Counted from the stretch's first letter, positions 1 to 14,049 are shown. The stretch: DNA of 64,000 nt from Candidatus Baldrarchaeota archaeon (GCA_019056805.1 DXJG01000009.1:126015-190014); one strand, 5' to 3'. Notes: generated from the sequence alone by a model not told the origin. Made by a program: numbers and translations.

Positions 1-256
1 ATCCTTCATGATACTAATGCAAATACCCATAATCGAAACCGCAGATCAAGCTTATAGAGCATTTGCAGCTGGAATATCTATCGGATTAGCTGCCCTAGGT
101 GCGGGTTTGGGAGTAGGATATTCGGGAGCTGCTATGTCTGGAGCTATAACGGAGCGTCCTGAAGCTTTCACCAAAAGCTTAATTTCCGTCGTTTTGGCAG
201 AGGCATTGGCCATTTACGGGCTTCTAATATCCTTCATGATACTAATGCAAATATAA
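1..256 (+). CDS. atpK: A/V-type ATP synthase proteolipid subunit K (c), partial at left edge; apparently a multi-hairpin fusion
   Basis: Glycine-rich proteolipid hairpin GISIGLAALGAGLGVGYSGAAMSGAITERPE...LAEALAIYGLLISFMILMQI. The frame stays open to base 2, upstream of the tracked ATG. Confidence 0.9.
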   Translation, partial: SFMILMQIPIIETADQAYRAFAAGISIGLAALGAGLGVGYSGAAMSGAITERPEAFTKSLISVVLAEALAIYGLLISFMILMQI

Positions 257-1705: not shown

Positions 1706-3202
1706 TTACATTTTGAGTACAGCTTCTGCAGCTTTTTCAACTACTTCTATCGCTGTCCTTGGCCATATTCCTATGAAGATTATCTGTATAGTCAGGATGA
1801 CTATGGGTATGAGTATCGATATTGGTGCCTCTTTTACGTGTTCCATTTCTTTGCTTGGCTCAGCGAATAGTATGATGTGAATTAGTCTCAAATAATAGAC
1901 TACTGAGAAAGCACTGTTGATAAGAGTTAATGCAGCAAGTACTAATTGTCCGCCTACGACGGCTCCCCATATAATCATAAACTTAGATACAAATCCACTT
2001 AATCCTGGAACTCCTGCAATAGCTAAGCATCCCATGAAGAAGCAAAATGCGGTAATAGGCATCTTTCTGCCTATTCCTTTAAGTTCTTCTAGGTTTCTAG
2101 TACCCAATTCGTGGATGAAAGCCCCTGCGCAAAGGAATAACATCCCTTTCATTAACGAATGGTTAAGTACATGAAGAAGTCCTCCAGCTACACCTATCAC
2201 AGCTGCTGTTTCACCGACTCCATTCATCATTCCTACAGCTAAACCTGCAAAAATGTATCCTATGTTCACTATGCTAGAGTATGCTAGCAATCGTTTAATG
2301 TCCTCTTGGAGCAACGCCATAATGTTACCTACGGTCATGGTTAGAACGGCAAAGACGGCAACTATTGTCCCATAATCCAATACCGTAACTGGGAAAGCAA
2401 GAAGTAGTACACGTAAAATACCGTAAACACCGTTTTTGATAACTACTCCTGAAAGCATAGCACTAATTGAGCTTGGCGCTGCGGGGTGTGCATCTGGTAG
2501 CCAGGTGTGCAGCGGTACTATTGACGCCTTCACACCAAATCCGATTATTAGCATACCCACTATTAGATACAACGATGGATCTGTTTTTGCGACTTGTAAA
2601 GCTTGATGGACAGCTTCGTAGCTAAGAGTTCCAGTAAGCCCGTAGATGAGTGATATAGCGTACAGTAACGTAGCAGAGCCGAAGGCTGACATTACGAGGT
2701 ATTTAAAGCCTGCTTCTACAGGTTCCCATGATTCTTTTCGGAAGGAGACAAGGGCATAGCTTGAAACGCTCATTAATTCCCAAGCAACAAAGAGCGTGAA
2801 TAGATCGCCTGCATATACTACTAAATTCATTCCGCCGATTAAGGCTAGTAGAAGTGCATAGTATTTGTCAAGACCAGTGTCTTTCTCCATATATGCGATA
2901 CTATATATTGTTACTAGGAAACCTAGGTTACTGAAGACAAGGGACATAAACCAACTTAACATATCAACTCTAAGGCAAGCCCCACCTGGAGGCTCAAAGA
3001 GGTAATGAAATGTTATTACACCTTGTTGGGATACAAGTTGATAAAAGTATATTACCGATGCTATGGTTCCCAGTGCCACTAGAGCCGCTAGATATCCTGT
3101 GACTTTTTCAACACCTGCTTTTCTAAGTAATATACCGAGTAGTGCAATTATAATTGCTCCTGCAAACGGTATTAATAGGGGTAACAATATTTCCTGTATC
3201 AT
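1706..3202 (-). CDS. nuoN: NuoN/MrpD-like proton-translocating antiporter-type subunit
   Basis: Antiporter-type signatures (LFVAWELMSVSSYALV, KASIVPLHTWLPDAHPAAPSSISAMLSGVVIKNGVYGILR); last gene of NuoJKLMN-like operon. Confidence 0.85.
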   Translation of the reverse strand: MIQEILLPLLIPFAGAIIIALLGILLRKAGVEKVTGYLAALVALGTIASVIYFYQLVSQQGVITFHYLFEPPGGACLRVDMLSWFMSLVFSNLGFLVTIYSIAYMEKDTGLDKYYALLLALIGGMNLVVYAGDLFTLFVAWELMSVSSYALVSFRKESWEPVEAGFKYLVMSAFGSATLLYAISLIYGLTGTLSYEAVHQALQVAKTDPSLYLIVGMLIIGFGVKASIVPLHTWLPDAHPAAPSSISAMLSGVVIKNGVYGILRVLLLAFPVTVLDYGTIVAVFAVLTMTVGNIMALLQEDIKRLLAYSSIVNIGYIFAGLAVGMMNGVGETAAVIGVAGGLLHVLNHSLMKGMLFLCAGAFIHELGTRNLEELKGIGRKMPITAFCFFMGCLAIAGVPGLSGFVSKFMIIWGAVVGGQLVLAALTLINSAFSVVYYLRLIHIILFAEPSKEMEHVKEAPISILIPIVILTIQIIFIGIWPRTAIEVVEKAAEAVLKM

Positions 3203-3205
3203 TTT

Positions 3206-4690
3206 TCACCCACCGATCAGTCTTTCTATTTCTTCAGCAGCTGGAATTAATATTCTTAATACAAGATCTGGATAGAAGCCTAAGAGAACTGCAAGGAAAG
3301 CTAGAATCGCCATAGGAGCCAACATGGTTAAAGGCGGTTCTTTAACATTTTCAAACTCTTCTCTCGGCGGTCCGAAGAACACTCTTCTTATCATCCATAG
3401 TATGTAACCAGCAGTTATTACTGTTGAAATTACAGCAAGCGCTGCAATTAAGTAATGTCCTGATGCGAAGGCTCCTGTGAATATTAGAAACTCGCTGACG
3501 AAACCATTGAGAGGCGGGGTTCCTGCTATTGATAACCCAGCAATGAGTGTTATTGTTGCAGTTATCGGCATTTTTCCTGCTAATCCTCCGAGTTTATCCA
3601 TATCTCTACCCTTTATTGGATCGATTTGATGCATTAGAACTCCTGCTACCATGAAGAGAAGCCCTTTACATATAGCGTGGTTTACTATGTGAAACATTGA
3701 ACCAACTATTCCATACTTTGTAGCTGCTGCTAATCCTAGGAACATGTAACCCATTTGTGATATACTTGAACATGCAAATAATCTCTTGAGATCCTTCTGA
3801 GCTAGAGCTAGTACTCCTCCATAAATCATAGTTACGACAGCTATTCCCATAAACACCGTTGTGTAAATTACAAATATAGTTCCAAAGAAGGTTAGAAGAA
3901 TTCTGGCAACTGCGTAGGTTCCACATTCGATCATAACACCTGAAAGAATAACACTTATCGGGGTTGGAGCTTCTGCGTGTGCATCTGGCAACCAGTTATG
4001 CAACGGGAACAATGCCATTTTTACTGCGAATCCGAGCATAAACAGAATTACTATTATCTTAAGGGTTGATGCTGGAGCTGCTGCTATACCATTAACCATT
4101 TCAGCCGCATATAGATCGAATGTTGCCGTTAAGTTCCATGTAGCTGCGATACCAAGAATTATACAAATAGCGCCTAAGTGGGTAAACATGAAGTATTTGA
4201 ATGCTATTAGTTGAGCCTTTTCTGATGTTCCCCAGCGAGCAATTAGCAACCATGATGGAATTAACATTAATTCCCAGAAGATATAGAACTGAATTAGATT
4301 AGTTGCTAGAACAACACCAACCATACCTGCTATGTAAATGAGTAAAAGCGCGAAATAAAGTTCCTGATTATGTTCATGTGACATGTATCCTATGGAGTAT
4401 AAAGTAGCAAGTGTGCACAACAGTAATATTATCCCTGCAATTGGTGTACTCAAATTGTCTGCTCGTAATCCAAATGTTAATCCGATGATTCCAGCCCATG
4501 AGTACTCCTCTACATATAGACCTGTCTCAAGAACGGTAGGCACCACGCTTATCGAGAATATTGCCAGGGATAGAAAAGAGAGGATAAAGGCTAACCATCC
4601 TGCAGCCTTCGTCGATCCCTTACCTACGGCATATACTATTGGTGCGCCAATAATAAGCAACACAACCATGATTAAGAGCGGACCACTCAT
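3206..4690 (-). CDS. nuoM: NuoM-like subunit
   Basis: FYIFWELMLIPSWLLI and KMALFPLHNWLPDAHAEAPTPISVILSGVMIECGTYAVAR motifs. Confidence 0.9.
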   Translation of the reverse strand: MSGPLLIMVVLLIIGAPIVYAVGKGSTKAAGWLAFILSFLSLAIFSISVVPTVLETGLYVEEYSWAGIIGLTFGLRADNLSTPIAGIILLLCTLATLYSIGYMSHEHNQELYFALLLIYIAGMVGVVLATNLIQFYIFWELMLIPSWLLIARWGTSEKAQLIAFKYFMFTHLGAICIILGIAATWNLTATFDLYAAEMVNGIAAAPASTLKIIVILFMLGFAVKMALFPLHNWLPDAHAEAPTPISVILSGVMIECGTYAVARILLTFFGTIFVIYTTVFMGIAVVTMIYGGVLALAQKDLKRLFACSSISQMGYMFLGLAAATKYGIVGSMFHIVNHAICKGLLFMVAGVLMHQIDPIKGRDMDKLGGLAGKMPITATITLIAGLSIAGTPPLNGFVSEFLIFTGAFASGHYLIAALAVISTVITAGYILWMIRRVFFGPPREEFENVKEPPLTMLAPMAILAFLAVLLGFYPDLVLRILIPAAEEIERLIGG

Positions 4691-4702
4691 TTTTTTCCCT
4701 CC

Positions 4703-6805
4703 TTAACCGAAGAGTAATAGTAATAGTATCGCAATTACACCCAGCATTACAGCGATCATGTTATAGTTTAGATCACCAGTATGTGTTTTTCTGAATGCCT
4801 GGCTAAAACTACGTACAACCCATGCTAACGCATAGTTAAACCTGTCAACGATGCCCTGTTCAAAGAACCTGTAAATTCCCAGACTTAATTTTATGAATCC
4901 GCCAACTATCACCTTTGTGTAAAAGTCATTGATATACCATCTGTTGTAGAAGAATTTGTGTACGGCACGGAAGAATCCATGCTTCTCCAAGAACTCTCCT
5001 GGATCAATTTTATGACTCCAATAGAAGTAATATGCAGGAATTCCTCCAAGGGCAATGGCACCTAGTGTCATAAGGATTGTTGGTGAAAACAATAGTTCTG
5101 CGAATATTTCCATTGATACGTGAACTTCCACTCCTTTCCAGCCTTTGAACATGAATACTTGGAACATTGGAGCGAACAAACCGCCTATAACTGATATTGC
5201 AGCTAGAACCGCTAGTGGAACCCACATCACTGGAGGAGCCTCATGTATATGTTCTCCTTTATGTTCTCTCTCCTTGATGTATTCGCTTTCAGGCCATAGG
5301 AATATTATAGCTATCATCCTAATGCTATAGAATAAGGTTATTGCGGCAGTTATTACTGCCATAAATAACAGTATGTATCCAGTCGTACCAATGAAGGCAT
5401 ATCCATGGGCATATGCTTCGTTAGCGAGTATCCATGCAGCATCAAATATAGTTTCTTTAGACCAAAAGCCGCTGAAGGGTGGTATACCGGCGAGTGATAA
5501 AGCTCCGATGAGCATACATTTGTATGTTATTGGCATATATTGTTTTAAGCCGCCCATTTCAAACATGTCTTTTGTTTCAGTAGCATGTAGAATCGCACCA
5601 GCTGAGAGGAATAAGAGGGCTTTAAAGACTGCATGTGACATAAGGTGGAAGGTTCCTGCATAGTATCCTTCAGCTATTTCTCCGGCAACGTAGCCTATTA
5701 GTCCTCCTACTCCAAGTGCAAGCATCATATATCCTATCTGTGAAATTGTTGAATATGCTAATACCTTTTTAACTTCTCTTGCCACCATTCCCATCGTTGC
5801 AGCTAGAAATGCTGTAAACGCACCTATACAAGCAACTATTAAGGAAAACGTGTATAATGCGCCAGTGAAGTTAATTAATTTGAATACTTCAACAAAGATG
5901 GGTAATACTCGTGCTACTAGGTAAACACCGGCTTTTACCATTGTTGCTGCATGTATGAGTGCAGAAACTGTTGTTGGACCTGCCATAGCTTCTGGTAACC
6001 ATACGTGCAATGGGAATTGAGCACTCTTACCTATAGGTCCACCGAAAAGTAGTATTATAGTTGGTATTAGTAGTCCACTTGCTACAAGTAATCTGGCCCA
6101 TTCTATATATTCCTCGCTTCTAAGTTCAAGAAAGTTGAATGTCGGGTGTCCTGCTTTCCAGGTGAAAACATAAATTGTTAAAATTGCTATTAGAAGGGCT
6201 ACATCGCCTACACGAGTTGTGATGAATGCTTTCATTCCACACATAGCATTATATTCGCCTTCAGTTTTATAATCTGGAACCGGGCTGGGATCTTTTTTCT
6301 TATGCCAGAACCCTATTAGGGCGTACGAACACATTCCGACAATTTCCCAGCCTATGAACATTTGTAGAAAGTTGTTTGCCATAACTAGGAGAACCATTCC
6401 CCCGATAAAGAAGTTCTTGAAGAACCAGTACCTTGTTAAATCAGGATCGCCATGCATGTATCCTAATGCGTACACCATGATTAGAGCACCGAGACCACTG
6501 GCAATATTAGCCATAAAGACACTTAGAGGGTCAACGAGTACTCCTACTTCTATTCCTAACCCTGGGATCCATTCTATTTTCGATTCATATGGAATACTAG
6601 TACTAAGTACCTCTCCAGTGAACCAGTTAACGACTTTCCCCGCGAAGATATCGGGCACCATTGAAAGAGCGAATATAAAGCCAACGATGCTGAACAGAAC
6701 AGCCCCATAATCTCTTACTTTCGGATGGATTTTTGCTAATAAAGGTGTTAATAATGCGCCTATTACAGGAATTCCCCAACATAGCCACGGTGCTAGAGGC
6801 AGCAT
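4703..6805 (-). CDS. nuoL: NuoL-like subunit with C-terminal extension
   Basis: 700 aa; GWEIVGMCSYALIGFWHKK, SAQFPLHVWLPEAMAGPTTVSALIHAATMVKAGVYLVAR. Confidence 0.92.
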   Translation of the reverse strand: MLPLAPWLCWGIPVIGALLTPLLAKIHPKVRDYGAVLFSIVGFIFALSMVPDIFAGKVVNWFTGEVLSTSIPYESKIEWIPGLGIEVGVLVDPLSVFMANIASGLGALIMVYALGYMHGDPDLTRYWFFKNFFIGGMVLLVMANNFLQMFIGWEIVGMCSYALIGFWHKKKDPSPVPDYKTEGEYNAMCGMKAFITTRVGDVALLIAILTIYVFTWKAGHPTFNFLELRSEEYIEWARLLVASGLLIPTIILLFGGPIGKSAQFPLHVWLPEAMAGPTTVSALIHAATMVKAGVYLVARVLPIFVEVFKLINFTGALYTFSLIVACIGAFTAFLAATMGMVAREVKKVLAYSTISQIGYMMLALGVGGLIGYVAGEIAEGYYAGTFHLMSHAVFKALLFLSAGAILHATETKDMFEMGGLKQYMPITYKCMLIGALSLAGIPPFSGFWSKETIFDAAWILANEAYAHGYAFIGTTGYILLFMAVITAAITLFYSIRMIAIIFLWPESEYIKEREHKGEHIHEAPPVMWVPLAVLAAISVIGGLFAPMFQVFMFKGWKGVEVHVSMEIFAELLFSPTILMTLGAIALGGIPAYYFYWSHKIDPGEFLEKHGFFRAVHKFFYNRWYINDFYTKVIVGGFIKLSLGIYRFFEQGIVDRFNYALAWVVRSFSQAFRKTHTGDLNYNMIAVMLGVIAILLLLLFG

Positions 6806-6820
6806 GACCTAACAGCCCCC

Positions 6821-7129
6821 TTACCATTTTAATCTTCTCATTTTTCTAACATCTAAGGTTCCGTAGTGTCGATATATGAGGAGAGTAAGCGACAATGCTA
6901 GAGCTATGACTCCCGCACCAACACCGATTGAAATTATAACAAAGCTACGAGCTAAAGGATCCAGACCTACAGTTGTAGTGCTAAGTGCAATAAAGTTGAG
7001 ATGAGCAGCGTTTATCAATATTTCAATGCCGATTATGAGTTTTATGATATTTCTTTTCGTTGCTAAACAGTAGAGTCCTATTAGATAAAGTATTGCAGCT
7101 GCACCTAAGTACCAATTTAATCCTATCAT
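6821..7129 (-). CDS. nuoK: NuoK-like subunit
   Basis: YLIGLYCLATKRNIIKLIIGIEILINAAHLNFIAL motif. Confidence 0.9.
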   Translation of the reverse strand: MIGLNWYLGAAAILYLIGLYCLATKRNIIKLIIGIEILINAAHLNFIALSTTTVGLDPLARSFVIISIGVGAGVIALALSLTLLIYRHYGTLDVRKMRRLKW

Positions 7130-7677
7130 TCCTTCTCTCCCCTTTCTCTTCTAAATAATGTAGCTACACCCAAACCAGCTACAAATAATGCCATTGCTTG
7201 AATTAATACATCTATTATTCTCACTTGCCAAACAGATTGTGCAACATTTTCCAGAATATTCTGGAAGGGTTTAAGCACAGGGAGATTTAAAGCCTCACCG
7301 TAAACAAAATGAAGGCCAACGTAGCTTGCAATAAACACTTGAACCATAAGAATGGCAATGATTATGAAAAGAAGTCCTCCAGATACCTCTGTAGCAATGT
7401 CATACTTCATTTCTTCCCTTTTTCCCTTTTCACCTGGGGACATTAAACTTAACACTGCCAAGAAAAGAACTATGACAGCACCGGCATACACTAGAAGGTT
7501 AATAACCGCTACGTAAGGTGCGTAGAGCACGTAAAAAATTATACTTAGAACCGTGCTCATTAGACCGAGTGAAACAACTGCATACGCTAATTTTTTTAAT
7601 TCAACGGCTAAAATTGCAAACAGGATTAAGAATCCAATCAACGCAACTTCGATCATAAATTCCAAGCTCATTTCCAT
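7126..7677 (-). CDS. nuoJ: NuoJ-like subunit
   Basis: INLLVYAGAVIVLFLAVLSLMS motif; overlaps nuoK start. Confidence 0.88.
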   Translation of the reverse strand: MEMSLEFMIEVALIGFLILFAILAVELKKLAYAVVSLGLMSTVLSIIFYVLYAPYVAVINLLVYAGAVIVLFLAVLSLMSPGEKGKREEMKYDIATEVSGGLLFIIIAILMVQVFIASYVGLHFVYGEALNLPVLKPFQNILENVAQSVWQVRIIDVLIQAMALFVAGLGVATLFRRERGEKE

Positions 7678-7834: not shown

Positions 7835-8149
7835 TTGGCTAACAAACTCATAGAAATAATAAGTGAAGTTGAAACAAAAGCAAAAGAGATAATTAGCGAA
7901 GCAGAGAAAAAAGCAGAAGAAATAATCAACCAAGCAAAGAAAGAAGCAGAGAATATCAGGGAAAAAGTCTTAAAAGATGCAGAAATCGAAGCAGAAAAAG
8001 TTTGGAAAGATATCTTGACAAGGGCGGAAGCGGAAGCAAAGAAAATAGTTGAAAAAGTAGAAAAAGACATAGAAAAATTAAGAACAGAAGCCCGCGAACA
8101 ATTTGATGAAGCTGTAAAATTAATCATGGATACTATAACTGGGGTGTGA
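7835..8149 (+). CDS. atpH: A-type ATP synthase subunit H (peripheral stalk)
   Basis: 104 aa Ala/Glu/Lys coiled coil directly upstream of subunit E. Confidence 0.75.
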   Translation: MANKLIEIISEVETKAKEIISEAEKKAEEIINQAKKEAENIREKVLKDAEIEAEKVWKDILTRAEAEAKKIVEKVEKDIEKLRTEAREQFDEAVKLIMDTITGV

Positions 8150-8153
8150 TTAA

Positions 8154-8771
8154 TTGAACGAACGGGTAGAAAAAATTGAGGAAATTATAATTAACGAAGC
8201 AAAAGGAAAAGCTGAAAACATTATCGCCAAAGCAAAAGAAGAGGCAAAGAAGATTCTTGATGAAGCTGAACAGGAAGCTAAAAAAGAAGCAGAAGAAATA
8301 ATTAACAAGAAGAAAGCAGACGCTGAAGCCCAAGCTCGCCGTATACTATCAGAAGCAAAATTGGAAGCAAGACTAAAGATACTTAATGCCAAAGAACAGT
8401 TAATATCAGAGGCTTTTGACACTGCCATTGAAAAGTTAAAAGAATTTTCGCAAAGTACACAATATAAAACCGCATTGGAAAATCTCATTAAAGACGCCGC
8501 AATAATTATAAGAGGCGGAGACTTAGAGGTTCTACTTCCAGAAAACACAAACGTGAATCTTGATTTATCAAAAATAGCAAAGGAAGTTGAAAATCAAACC
8601 GGAGTAAAAACTTCACTTAGCATATCCAACGAAACGATTAGAAGCATCGGTGGCGTAATAGTCAGATCAAAAGACCAATTTTTAACCGTGGATAACACTT
8701 TTGAAGCAAGACTTGAAAGGCTACGAGAACAACTTCGTGTAAATGTAGCCAATTTACTCTTTAAAACATAA
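8154..8771 (+). CDS. atpE: A/V-type ATP synthase subunit E
   Basis: Long N-terminal coiled coil plus C-terminal IGGVIVRSKDQFLTVDNTFEARLERLREQLRVNVANLLF. Confidence 0.88.
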   Translation: MNERVEKIEEIIINEAKGKAENIIAKAKEEAKKILDEAEQEAKKEAEEIINKKKADAEAQARRILSEAKLEARLKILNAKEQLISEAFDTAIEKLKEFSQSTQYKTALENLIKDAAIIIRGGDLEVLLPENTNVNLDLSKIAKEVENQTGVKTSLSISNETIRSIGGVIVRSKDQFLTVDNTFEARLERLREQLRVNVANLLFKT

Positions 8772-9016: not shown

Positions 9017-9973
9017 ATGGGTGTTAGAATGTCTAGCAAGTCTTGTAGATTTTGTTCTAAACCTGCTATCCTGAGAATACGGTACTCCGGGCTTCTAGTA
9101 TGTAAAAAGCATTTTATAGAGTACTTTGAAAAACGAGTGTTTAGAACAATTCAAAAATATAAAATGATACGAGAGGGAGACAAGGTTTTACTTGGACTTA
9201 GTGGGGGAAAAGACAGCATAGCACTTCTCCATATATTTACAAACCTACAAAATACTTTGAAATTTGAAATTCTTCCCCTCTTTATAGATTTAGGAATTCA
9301 ACTTAATAATTACTCTCAGGTTAGCAGCGAAATAGTAAAAAGAAATTGCAAAAAACTTGGACTAGATGTTATCATCGTAAAAATAAAAGACGAATACGGT
9401 TTTTCGATAGATAATGTTTCCGCCAAGAAATTAAGGAGACCTATATGTTCTGTTTGTGGATTAATTAAACGATATGTACTTAACAGAAAAACCCTTGAGT
9501 TATCAGTTAACAAGGTTGCTACTGGTCATAACCTTAATGATGAAGCAACTTTTCTTCTACAAAACATTATAAACACAGACGTTGACTTGTTATCCAAATT
9601 TGGACCTATTCAACCGACACTTGAAGGACTATTTGTAAGCAGGATAAAACCATTTTTCGAAACATATGAAGATGATATATCACTATATGCGACCCTTAAA
9701 AACCTAGAATACGTTGACACAACTTGCCCATACGCCAAAGATGCTTCGACATTGCAACTTAAAACAATTATAGCAAACCTTGAAAATATAAGACCCGGCG
9801 CAGCCCTGGCTATGGTTAAAGGATTCTACAAAAAAATTAAGCCTTTACTTCAAAGTATTAGAGAAGAAAGAGAAGAAAAAATAACTAAATGCAAAATATG
9901 TGGTATGCCAACATCTATGGAAATTTGCTCATTTTGCCGATTGAGAGACAGAATCGCTAAAACAAATTTTTAA
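9017..9973 (+). CDS. ttuA: tRNA 2-thiolation PP-loop ATPase, TtuA/Ncs6-like (TIGR00269 type)
   Basis: N- and C-terminal CxxC zinc motifs, LLGLSGGKDSIALLHI PP-loop, ATGHNLNDEA. Confidence 0.88.
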   Translation: MGVRMSSKSCRFCSKPAILRIRYSGLLVCKKHFIEYFEKRVFRTIQKYKMIREGDKVLLGLSGGKDSIALLHIFTNLQNTLKFEILPLFIDLGIQLNNYSQVSSEIVKRNCKKLGLDVIIVKIKDEYGFSIDNVSAKKLRRPICSVCGLIKRYVLNRKTLELSVNKVATGHNLNDEATFLLQNIINTDVDLLSKFGPIQPTLEGLFVSRIKPFFETYEDDISLYATLKNLEYVDTTCPYAKDASTLQLKTIIANLENIRPGAALAMVKGFYKKIKPLLQSIREEREEKITKCKICGMPTSMEICSFCRLRDRIAKTNF

Positions 9974-10251: not shown

Positions 10252-10566
10252 ATGACCTCTCTAGTAACTTGGATGGGACTAGTAATTTGTGTACTCATAG
10301 CGGTTGTACTTTACCTTTTAGGGAAAAAAATAGCGCCTCCAAGCGAAGAAAACCCTGAAAAAAGAGCACCCTATGCATGCGGTGAAGATTTTCCACCAGA
10401 AGAGGTCCAAGTATATATTCACAATTTCCACTACATTGCTTTCTTCGTGATTTTTGAAGTCGCGGTTCTTCTTCTGGCATTGTCCATGTATTCCTTCTCC
10501 TTCTTCGCTGTGGCGTTATACGCAATTGTTGTTTTTCTAGCACTTTCTCAAATACCAAGGTGGTAG
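10252..10566 (+). CDS. nuoA: NuoA-like subunit
   Basis: KRAPYACGEDFPPEEVQVYIHNFHYIAFFVIFEVAVLLLALSMY resembles NuoA; directly upstream of NuoB-like gene. Confidence 0.8.
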   Translation: MTSLVTWMGLVICVLIAVVLYLLGKKIAPPSEENPEKRAPYACGEDFPPEEVQVYIHNFHYIAFFVIFEVAVLLLALSMYSFSFFAVALYAIVVFLALSQIPRW

Positions 10567-11003
10567 AAATGGCAGTGTTAAGTAAACTTGTAAAATGGGC
10601 GAGAATAAAGTCTCCTTGGATAATTCATTACAACAGTGGTGGTTGCAACGCATGTGATATTGAAGTTGTTGCTGCATTAACCCCTAGATTTGACGTTGAA
10701 CGTTTCGGTATTCTTCTTAAAGGTAGCCCTAGACACGCTGATGTACTAGTTGTCACTGGGCCAGTAACTAGGCAAACTAAAAATAGACTAATTAGAATCT
10801 ATAATCAAATGGCTGATCCAAAATTTGTACTAGCTGTAGGTACCTGCACTATAACTGGCGGAGTATTTCGTGGAGCCTACGGTGTACTGGGCGGAGTAGA
10901 CGAAGCAATACCAGTTGACGTATTTGTTCCTGGATGTCCACCCAAGCCAGAAGCCATAATTCAAGGAGTTGTAAAACTATTAGAAAAATTGCAGAAAACC
11001 TAA
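10560..11003 (+). CDS. nuoB: NuoB-like / group 4 [NiFe]-hydrogenase small subunit
   Basis: SGGCNACDIEVVAALTPRFDVERFGI...GTCTITGG...VPGCPPKPEAI; CxxCDIE is the hydrogenase-type form. Confidence 0.9.
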   Translation: MVEMAVLSKLVKWARIKSPWIIHYNSGGCNACDIEVVAALTPRFDVERFGILLKGSPRHADVLVVTGPVTRQTKNRLIRIYNQMADPKFVLAVGTCTITGGVFRGAYGVLGGVDEAIPVDVFVPGCPPKPEAIIQGVVKLLEKLQKT

Positions 11004-11017
11004 AATAGGAGGTAAAC

Positions 11018-11491
11018 GTGTTGAGCGAAAGTTTAGAAGTTGAAAAAGAAATCGTTGACGACTTCAAAAAAATTCTAGGGGCAGACTTTATAGACGGACA
11101 AGTTCAACGTAAGGGACGAGTCTACATAAAAGTGAAAACAGACGCTTACAAAAAAGCAATAGAACATGCAGTAGAGAAATGGAATACCTACCATCTATCA
11201 ACCATAAGTGGCGTTGACTTGGGAGAAAACATAGAGCTTCTATATCACTTACTTGATCCAAAAGCCAAAATTACCATTACAATAAGAACAGAGATTCCTA
11301 AATCCGACCCAAAGATTGGAACAGTTTCAGATATACTCCCATCTGCCTTAGTATATGAGAGAGAAGTATACGATCTCTTAGGCGTAATATTTACCGGTCA
11401 CCCAGATCTTAGACGTTTAGTCTTACCTGAAGATTTCCCTGAAGGAGTTCACCCACTTAGAAAGGAGTGGAAACCTGAGGAGGTTAAATAG
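11018..11491 (+). CDS. nuoC: NuoC-like subunit
   Basis: YEREVYDLLGVIFTGHPDLRRLVLPEDFPEGVHPLRKEW. Confidence 0.92.
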   Translation: MLSESLEVEKEIVDDFKKILGADFIDGQVQRKGRVYIKVKTDAYKKAIEHAVEKWNTYHLSTISGVDLGENIELLYHLLDPKAKITITIRTEIPKSDPKIGTVSDILPSALVYEREVYDLLGVIFTGHPDLRRLVLPEDFPEGVHPLRKEWKPEEVK

Positions 11492-11493
11492 AA

Positions 11494-12711
11494 ATGAGCG
11501 TTGAAAAAAGAATTTTTAAAATACCTGTTGGCCCACAGCATCCAGCTCTAAAGGAATTTGAACACTTTGTATTTACTGTTGATGGAGAGAGGGTCATAGA
11601 TGTAGGTTTTAGAATAGGTTACACTCACAGAGGCATCGAAAAACTAGCTGAATCAAAAACATATATTCAAAACCTTTATCTCTGTGAAAGAATTTGCGGT
11701 ATTTGTAGTGCGGCTCACCAAGGCTGCTATGCTCAAACCGTTGAAGAACTTGCTGATATTACTGCTCCCCCCAGAGGGACATATATTCGAACATTAATTT
11801 GGGAATTGGAACGTATTCACAGCCACTTATTATGGCTTGGTGTTGCAGCACACGAAATAGGATTTGACACATTATTTATGTTAGTTTGGCGTGATCGAGA
11901 AGTAGTTATGGACCTATTAGAAATGATTTCAGGAAACAGAGTCAACTATGCGATGAGTACTATAGGAGGAGTTCGTAGAGACATATCTGATGAATTAAAA
12001 CATAAAATACTGAAAGGACTAGATATACTTGAGGAAAGAACAAAATATTACAAAGAAGTTTGTATGAAAGAACAAACAATCCTAGCTAGAGCTGCAAATG
12101 TAGGTATATTAACACGAGAACAAGCATTAAAGCTCAACGCGGTCGGTCCAACTGCCCGAGCATCTGGAGTAGACGTAGATCTACGTAGAGACGATCCTTA
12201 TGGAGCATATGATGAAGTACCTTTTAACGTAATAGTTTATGATACATGTGACGTACTTGCCAGAGTTCTAGTGCGAGTTGACGAAACCTTTGAATGTATT
12301 AACATGTGCCGCTGGCTTCTTGAAAACTTACCAGAAGGAGACATAAGAACTAAATTCGCCCGTAAAATTGCCGAAAACGAAGTTGTTGGTAGAGTTGAAG
12401 CACCAAGAGGCGAACTATTCTACTACATAAAGTCTAATGGCACCGATAAACCTGAAAGACTTAAAGTTCGAACACCCACGCTAGCTAACATACTCCCAGT
12501 TTGTGAAATGCTTAAAGGAGGATATATCGCTGACATACCCATTGTACTCGCTGGAATTGATCCATGCTTTGCATGTATGGATCGTGCGCTCTTTATAGAC
12601 GAGAACTCAGAAAAGAAATGGGTGTGGAGTAGGGAACAATTGAGAATATATTCAATTAAGTGGTATAAGGAACATGGCAATGAGGTGGTGAGGGAAAGAT
12701 GGAAACAATAG
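11494..12711 (+). CDS. nuoD: NuoD-like / group 4 [NiFe]-hydrogenase large subunit with intact cysteine motifs
   Basis: L1 CERICGICSAAHQGCYAQ and L2 IDPCFACMDR, i.e. the two CxxC pairs of [NiFe] hydrogenases. Confidence 0.92.
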   Translation: MSVEKRIFKIPVGPQHPALKEFEHFVFTVDGERVIDVGFRIGYTHRGIEKLAESKTYIQNLYLCERICGICSAAHQGCYAQTVEELADITAPPRGTYIRTLIWELERIHSHLLWLGVAAHEIGFDTLFMLVWRDREVVMDLLEMISGNRVNYAMSTIGGVRRDISDELKHKILKGLDILEERTKYYKEVCMKEQTILARAANVGILTREQALKLNAVGPTARASGVDVDLRRDDPYGAYDEVPFNVIVYDTCDVLARVLVRVDETFECINMCRWLLENLPEGDIRTKFARKIAENEVVGRVEAPRGELFYYIKSNGTDKPERLKVRTPTLANILPVCEMLKGGYIADIPIVLAGIDPCFACMDRALFIDENSEKKWVWSREQLRIYSIKWYKEHGNEVVRERWKQ

Positions 12712-13694
12712 AGTTACTTATTCTTCTCCTTAAATTTATAGTATTTCCCGGAGCCATTTTCTGTATAGCATACGGTTTCTTCCTAGAGTGGTTCGATAGA
12801 AAACTTTACGCTAAATTCCAAAACAGAATCGGACCTTTACTCACAGGACCAAAAGGGTTACTTCAACCATTTGCAGACTTCGTTAAATTATTAGCAAAAG
12901 AGGATATTACACCAGTTGGTGCTGATAAACTCGGGTTCACACTCACTCCCCTACTAACTGTCGCTGTTTCACTGTTCACATTACTGTTCATTCCAATCCA
13001 CTCATTAACAGGAGTACTAAGTTTACCAGGAGATGTTCTACTTGTTTTGTTCATCTCAACCGTATTTGGACTGCTAATCATGTTTGCTGGATACTTCTCT
13101 GGTAATAGATTCTCCATGGTAGGAACAGAGAGAACTGGGCTTCAATTTGTTGGATATGAGATACCCTTTGCTCTTTCCGTTATTTCTGTAGCAGCCGCCG
13201 CGAGAAGCTTAGAAATCACCAACATAGTTAATTACCAAGTCAACATACTCGGTTTACCTTTAATAGTCTTCACTCCCATAGCATTTGCCATATATCTTAT
13301 AAGCGCACTAGCAAAACTAGAAAAAATACCATTTGACATCCCAGAAGCGGAAACAGAGATCGTAGGTGGATGGCAAGTAGAATACAGTGGAAAGAAACTA
13401 GCATTCTTCAGACTTGCCACAGATTTAAAAATGGTCTTTGTCTCAGGACTTGCCGCAGCACTGTTTCTCGGGGGACCATATGGCCCTTCAATTCCAGGCT
13501 TAGAACCAATATTCTACACTATCTGGTTTATCATAAAAACATTAATTGTAATGTTCATATTAAGTAACCTTAGATCGCTTTTCGCCAGATACAGAATAGA
13601 CCAAGTAGTTCATGGATTCTGGAAATACATGGTACCATTAGCAGTATTACAAATCTTAATTGTTGAAGGTCTCATATTTATGGGGGTAATCTAA
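12699..13694 (+). CDS. nuoH: NuoH-like subunit
   Basis: KFQNRIGPLLTGPKGLLQPFADFVKLLAKEDITP and PFDIPEAETEIVGGWQVEYSGKKLAFF. Confidence 0.93.
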   Translation: METIELLILLLKFIVFPGAIFCIAYGFFLEWFDRKLYAKFQNRIGPLLTGPKGLLQPFADFVKLLAKEDITPVGADKLGFTLTPLLTVAVSLFTLLFIPIHSLTGVLSLPGDVLLVLFISTVFGLLIMFAGYFSGNRFSMVGTERTGLQFVGYEIPFALSVISVAAAARSLEITNIVNYQVNILGLPLIVFTPIAFAIYLISALAKLEKIPFDIPEAETEIVGGWQVEYSGKKLAFFRLATDLKMVFVSGLAAALFLGGPYGPSIPGLEPIFYTIWFIIKTLIVMFILSNLRSLFARYRIDQVVHGFWKYMVPLAVLQILIVEGLIFMGVI

Positions 13695-13695
13695 A

Positions 13696-14049
13696 ATGCC
13701 GCTTCCTGGAGCTATGGAAAAAGAATTAATAAAACTTATAGCAAAAAAACCTGCTACAGAAATGTATCCTTTTATTAAAGTAGAACCTCCAGAAGGATAT
13801 CGTGGAAAAATTTCGTTCGACATAGAAAAATGTATCGGCTGTGGTCTTTGCGCCAAAGACTGTCCAGCTGGAGCCATTGAAATGGTAGAAGATGAAAGAA
13901 CAAAACTCAAAAAACGACCAAAATTCATCTATAGTAGATGCCTATTCTGCGCACAGTGCGAAGAATCCTGTCCACGTAAAGCCATAAAACTAACAAAAGA
14001 ATTCGAGCTAGCAGATTACAACAAAGAAGCCATGGTAATCGATGTCTAA
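13696..14049 (+). CDS. nuoI: NuoI-like 2x[4Fe-4S] ferredoxin subunit
   Basis: CIGCGLCAKDCP and CLFCAQCEESCP. Confidence 0.9.
   Translation: MPLPGAMEKELIKLIAKKPATEMYPFIKVEPPEGYRGKISFDIEKCIGCGLCAKDCPAGAIEMVEDERTKLKKRPKFIYSRCLFCAQCEESCPRKAIKLTKEFELADYNKEAMVIDV

Follow-up and report, generated by a model that had tools for sequence, protein, structure and literature searches.

The window analysed in this study, a stretch of 64,000 nucleotides from Candidatus Baldrarchaeota archaeon (GCA_019056805.1, DXJG01000009.1:126015-190014), encodes all eleven core subunits of complex I together, in two neighbouring and divergent sets of genes. On the plus strand (10252-14049) are found the small membrane subunit A (10252-10566; Pfam Oxidored_q4), the small subunit B with the GGCNACDIE motif of the proximal [4Fe-4S] cluster (10560-11003; Oxidored_q6), the 30-kDa subunit C (11018-11491; Complex1_30kDa), the large catalytic subunit D of 405 aa (11494-12711; Complex1_49kDa and NiFeSe_Hases, the latter with 48.1 bits against a cut-off of 25.8), the membrane anchor and E-channel homolog H (12699-13694; NADHdh), and the ferredoxin-like subunit I (13696-14049; Fer4). 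On the minus strand (1706-7677) are the membrane subunits J (7126-7677; Oxidored_q3, and also MbhD, whose cut-off is barely exceeded) and K (6821-7129), followed by the antiporter-like subunits L (4703-6805; 700 aa, with NuoL models matched to its C-terminus and a score above the curated cut-off of NDH_I_L), M (3206-4690) and N (1706-3202). The sequence-only reading had placed A, C, H and I on the plus strand and J, K, L, M and N on the minus strand; the open reading frames and Pfam families agree with these members and with the coordinates that it gave, which are exact, and B, which was missing from that list, brings the set to eleven. The motifs ERICGICSAAH and IDPCFACMDR in the large subunit and GGCNACDIE in the small subunit were likewise read exactly as reported, confirming the observation of a complex I-like set with intact [NiFe] cysteines. 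The E-values exclude a chance resemblance, and so does conservation: D is 91-92% identical in two congeneric genomes (92% in the closer) and 73% identical in Ca. Baldrarchaeum yapensis. The host genome (1.92 Mb, 91% complete) belongs to the same order as the latter species, which NCBI assigns to the Baldrarchaeia in the kingdom Promethearchaeati, the Asgard archaea.

The hydrogenase genes are interleaved with genes for A-type ATP synthase subunits and a TtuA-like gene (8-256, 587-1651, 7835-8771 and 9017-9973). ATP synthase K and C lie beyond N, while H and E (7835-8771, plus strand) and the TtuA-like gene separate J from A; the intervening H and E genes are context and not part of the enzyme. 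All three genomes from the genus share this arrangement, to the extent that their contigs cover it. Group 4-type clusters of Borrarchaeum (L050, L170) and B. yapensis (L135) likewise have ATP synthase C and K genes as neighbours, as does a cluster lacking the cysteines (L142). 

All four Ni-Fe cysteines of D are present (C68, C71, C358 and C361), within the L1 and L2 motifs CGICSAAH and DPCFACMDR. The closest solved relative of D is chain L of the Pyrococcus furiosus MBH (E 3.8e-94) and that of B is MbhJ (6cfw_J, E 7.5e-52), both ahead of complex I. When compared with the solved Thermus structure, Cys68-Gly69-Ile70-Cys71 of D lies opposite Asp-Tyr-Leu-His of Nqo4, so that Gly69 aligns with the quinone-site Tyr, and Cys68 and Cys71 align with the Asp before it and the His two positions after it; the second cysteine pair is also gone in Nqo4, which reads DPVMGDVDR. 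In the small subunit, B and MbhJ share a hydrogenase-type CxxC (CNAC in B), whereas complex I homologs have a tandem CC without the two spacer residues. Consistent with these differences, D falls below the NCBI NuoD cut-offs (306.6 versus 459.35 for TIGR01962 and 343.2 versus 360 for PRK06075). D is expected to fall in HydDB subgroup 4g.

Downstream of the predicted cleavage site (...CMDR), D carries a C-terminal tail of 41 residues after R364, and the deposited P. furiosus MbhL chain stops at SCTDR, at the same Arg. Among the homologs of D, 104 of 110 proteins with four cysteines have at least 20 residues after this Arg, compared to none of the 22 with fewer cysteines (Fisher test on distinct sequences, p = 7e-19, a value that overstates the case due to kinship). 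The six exceptions, with four cysteines but little or no tail, comprise L098, L118, L121, L122 and L123, which are mostly from Chloroflexota or uncultured bacteria and have either no tail or one of seven residues, and L125, which is a Bathyarchaeota contig. Some known hydrogenases have no C-terminal tail. Since cysteines and tail go together, and a neutral relic is not expected to have preserved the two, the correlation argues against D being an inactive relic. The combination of four cysteines and a tail, as opposed to lost cysteines and no tail, thus offers a simple test for separating live hydrogenases from complex I relatives, which could be useful for automatic annotation, where names of the NuoB or NuoL type would otherwise be given.

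A tree of D was built from 337 columns that excluded both cysteine motifs. In this tree D pairs with its B. yapensis counterpart (99/96, starred), and the two sit among four-cysteine, tailed proteins of Asgard archaea, Bathyarchaeota, other archaea and many bacteria, although the branch order among these relatives is poorly supported and the sample does not contain the published Hfo sequences. The homologs without ligands, including Escherichia coli NuoCD and Thermus Nqo4, form a single starred clade (100/100) apart from D. HycE/HyfG, MbhL and a second group 4-like enzyme of the same genome fall outside the set that holds D and complex I, with moderate support (80/89). A further loss of ligands is seen in L152 (genome G020), a very divergent D homolog whose branch is the longest of all and which reads CSCC at the ligand positions.

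The genome encodes the maturation proteins HypF (856 bits), HypE (434), HypD (two copies, 492 and 477), HypC and HypB, all above their cut-offs, as well as a HycI endopeptidase of 167 aa (126.3 bits versus an NCBIfam equivalog cut-off of 119.1). HypA was not found in the 1.92-Mb assembly, which at about 91% completeness may have a gap at this gene; it is also possible that the factor has been replaced. The two HypD genes are different and lie on separate contigs (L011 8999-10117 and L012 9352-10464). With regard to electron input, NuoF (PF01512) has no match anywhere in the genome, which excludes NADH input of the complex I type, and FpoF and FpoO are absent from the surroundings of the cluster. 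Among the cluster ORFs of at least 80 aa, none was recognised as an Mrp subunit of the MnhE/F/G type. The earlier statements that the set lacks NuoEFG and Mrp modules are therefore upheld, the former by the genome-wide absence of NuoF.

Both 4Fe-4S motifs of I are complete (CIGCGLCAKDC and CLFCAQCEESC). In the membrane arm, H retains Glu157, 216, 218, 220 and 228 (E. coli numbering), and the antiporter-like subunits retain E154, K260, K395 and K450 in L, E140, K224 and E400 in M, and E142, K225, K256 and K407 in N. These correspond to residues that matter for ion translocation in E. coli complex I (L E144/K229/K342/K399, M E144/K234/E407 and N E133/K217/K247/K395), to which K E36, H E157 and E216-E228, and J Y59, all kept as well, also belong. 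Three positions differ. While Glu36 of K is kept, E. coli Glu72 is replaced by Val; E. coli Glu81 of A is replaced by Ala; and E. coli K265 of M is replaced by Glu, at a position where the alignment is less sure. The changes in K and A are common to most relatives, and with Glu72 and Glu81 missing, coupling could differ from that in complex I.

Taken together, these features indicate that this Asgard archaeon, a member of the Baldrarchaeum order, very probably has an energy-converting [NiFe] hydrogenase of the type called Hfo (Fpo-like hydrogenase), and that the enzyme is most likely ferredoxin-linked and ion-translocating. Electrons from reduced ferredoxin would enter through the two clusters of I and pass through the B cluster to the Ni-Fe site of D, where protons would be reduced to H2. 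The energy released would then expel ions through a membrane arm made up of H, A, J and K together with L, M and N, and the neighbouring A-type ATP synthase could use the resulting gradient. The reverse may also occur, with H2 and an ion gradient yielding reduced ferredoxin. As for assembly, the D precursor would be loaded by the Hyp proteins and then cut by HycI after Arg364. The maturation genes and the phylogeny of D support the earlier prediction of an H2-linked, ion-pumping complex, and its warning against annotation as NADH dehydrogenase also stands, as complex I is ruled out by the missed NuoD cut-offs, the absence of NuoF from the genome, the cysteines and the tail.

Several alternatives need to be weighed against this assignment. 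The complex could be a complex I- or Fpo-like oxidoreductase passing electrons from ferredoxin to a quinone or another acceptor, with cysteines that are relics and no Ni-Fe site assembled. Window proteins do pass NuoB- and NuoL-family models, the subunits are those found in complex I, and a 2021 paper suggested a ferredoxin:menaquinone role for complexes without NuoEFG from other Asgard classes (PMC9723677). However, the cysteines, tail and HycI are all retained here, the tail is gone in 22 of 22 homologs that have lost cysteines, and the position of the quinone-site Tyr is occupied by a Gly between two Ni-Fe cysteines, making this explanation very unlikely. A sodium-translocating hydrogenase of the Mbh type (group 4d), equipped with an Mrp module, is scarcely credible and is rejected on gene content: although the nearest solved relatives are Mbh subunits and J matches the MbhD domain, no MnhE/F/G-type genes were recognised among ORFs of at least 80 aa, A, K, C and three full antiporter-like subunits are present as in complex I, and the moderately supported branch described above (80/89) lies between D and MbhL.

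It is also possible that the enzyme is an active hydrogenase working mainly in reverse, with an ion gradient driving H2-dependent ferredoxin reduction for the Wood-Ljungdahl pathway. The genome encodes an acetyl-CoA synthase (CdhC), which leaves room for H2-driven reduction of ferredoxin alongside the production of H2, and it encodes another, group 3b-like hydrogenase; the same proposal has been made for Bathyarchaeia Hfo by Loh et al. (PMC7886697). On the other hand, the adjoining ATP synthase genes suit either direction and the sequence fixes neither, and predominantly reverse operation is considered unlikely, though far from negligible. It is a variant of the Hfo explanation and does not compete with it for the identity of the enzyme.

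The Hfo hydrogenase was described by Loh, Herve and Brune in 2021 as an 11-subunit Fpo-like [NiFe] hydrogenase of Bathyarchaeia, with relatives named in Ca. Methanomethylicus mesodigestum and Pyrodictium delaneyi, and at that time no subgroup 4g hydrogenase had been biochemically characterised (PMC7886697); the subgroup has since been reported to be polyphyletic (PMC11291895). The Baldrarchaeum-order complex resembles Hfo in its eleven complex I core subunits, its intact L1 and L2 cysteines, and its lack of an NADH module and of the Na+ transport module of Mbh, and its D shows 52-65% identity to the D subunits of named Bathyarchaeota from similar clusters. It differs from Hfo in its Asgard host and in the division of its genes into two divergent sets with an insertion of ATP synthase H and E and TtuA-like genes; J and A are arranged divergently in several Bathyarchaeota too, where the insertion is absent, and a survey of hot-spring Bathyarchaeia found rearranged fpo-like clusters (PMC8407382). 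A novel group 4 complex I-like hydrogenase, with AlphaFold models, was reported for Freyarchaeia and Atabeyarchaeia in Nature Communications in 2024, and the same paper linked ATP synthase to a group 4 hydrogenase in an Asgard lineage, Freyarchaeia (PMC11291895). Those complexes share with the present one an Asgard host, a group 4 large subunit, NuoL/M/N-like subunits and ATP synthase genes in the same block; however, their genes share a block with those for Hdr and for a group 3 hydrogenase, neither of which was found in the stretch read around the window cluster. P. furiosus Mbh (6cfw, group 4d) has the same cysteine ligands and a mature chain ending at the same Arg, but carries a Na+ transport (Mrp-like) module where the window complex, like complex I, has A and K plus three antiporter-like subunits. 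Nuo and Fpo share the eleven core subunits and most of the ion-channel residues, but the window complex has none of their distinguishing traits, namely the loss of the cysteines and tail, a quinone site, and an input module for NADH or F420. The Baldrarchaeum-order complex is thus real and well preserved, but enzymes of its kind had already been reported from other archaea (2021 and 2024). No paper on an Hfo-type enzyme in Baldrarchaeia was found in the literature searched, and the present results add one Asgard order to the hosts of hydrogenases with a full complex I membrane arm.

The sequence-only reading had also regarded the complex as a useful intermediate form. The same idea, including the motif argument and the evolutionary point that the pump preceded the use of quinone, was already made in 2021 by Loh et al. 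(PMC7886697), and is therefore not new. The best tree nests complex I within the Hfo-like set, but the AU test does not reject an alternative in which the 56 Hfo-like rows form one group (p-AU 0.243), and the nesting is accordingly not claimed here. Hfo-like complexes of Asgard archaea, Bathyarchaeia and many bacteria might represent the direct pre-quinone stage, in which the pump arm was assembled in a hydrogenase and from within which complex I and its relatives without cysteines arose by loss of ligands and tail; this scenario is put forward tentatively, as a serious possibility that is somewhat less probable than its opposite.

Clusters were considered similar when at least seven of A, B, C, D, H, I, J and K and at least two antiporter-like genes were found near D. 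By this definition, at least 50 of the 80 named loci listed carry a similar cluster, at least 16 of them archaeal and at least 34 bacterial, the latter from at least 10 bacterial phyla. Elsewhere in the same genome, a second four-cysteine group 4-like cluster on contig C11 (L010 8718-14482) contains a C-D fusion with a 28-aa tail, an HdrB-like CCG protein, a HycB-like ferredoxin, homologs of NuoB, NuoI and NuoH, and a small unassigned protein of 105 aa, with no antiporter-like subunit within the 19 kb read. On contig C9 (L009 5836-9785), four genes resemble a group 3b-type sulfhydrogenase, whose large subunit fits the HydA/ShyA models best, yet falls under their cut-offs. Tandem ATP synthase proteolipid genes, one of them a two-hairpin fusion, lie beside a run of N in the assembly (L013 10673-12072; window 8-256). 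Finally, translations of the B. yapensis locus L047 (4800-8506) place HdrB-, HdrC-, lipoate ligase- and GcvH-like genes between the membrane-arm genes and A.
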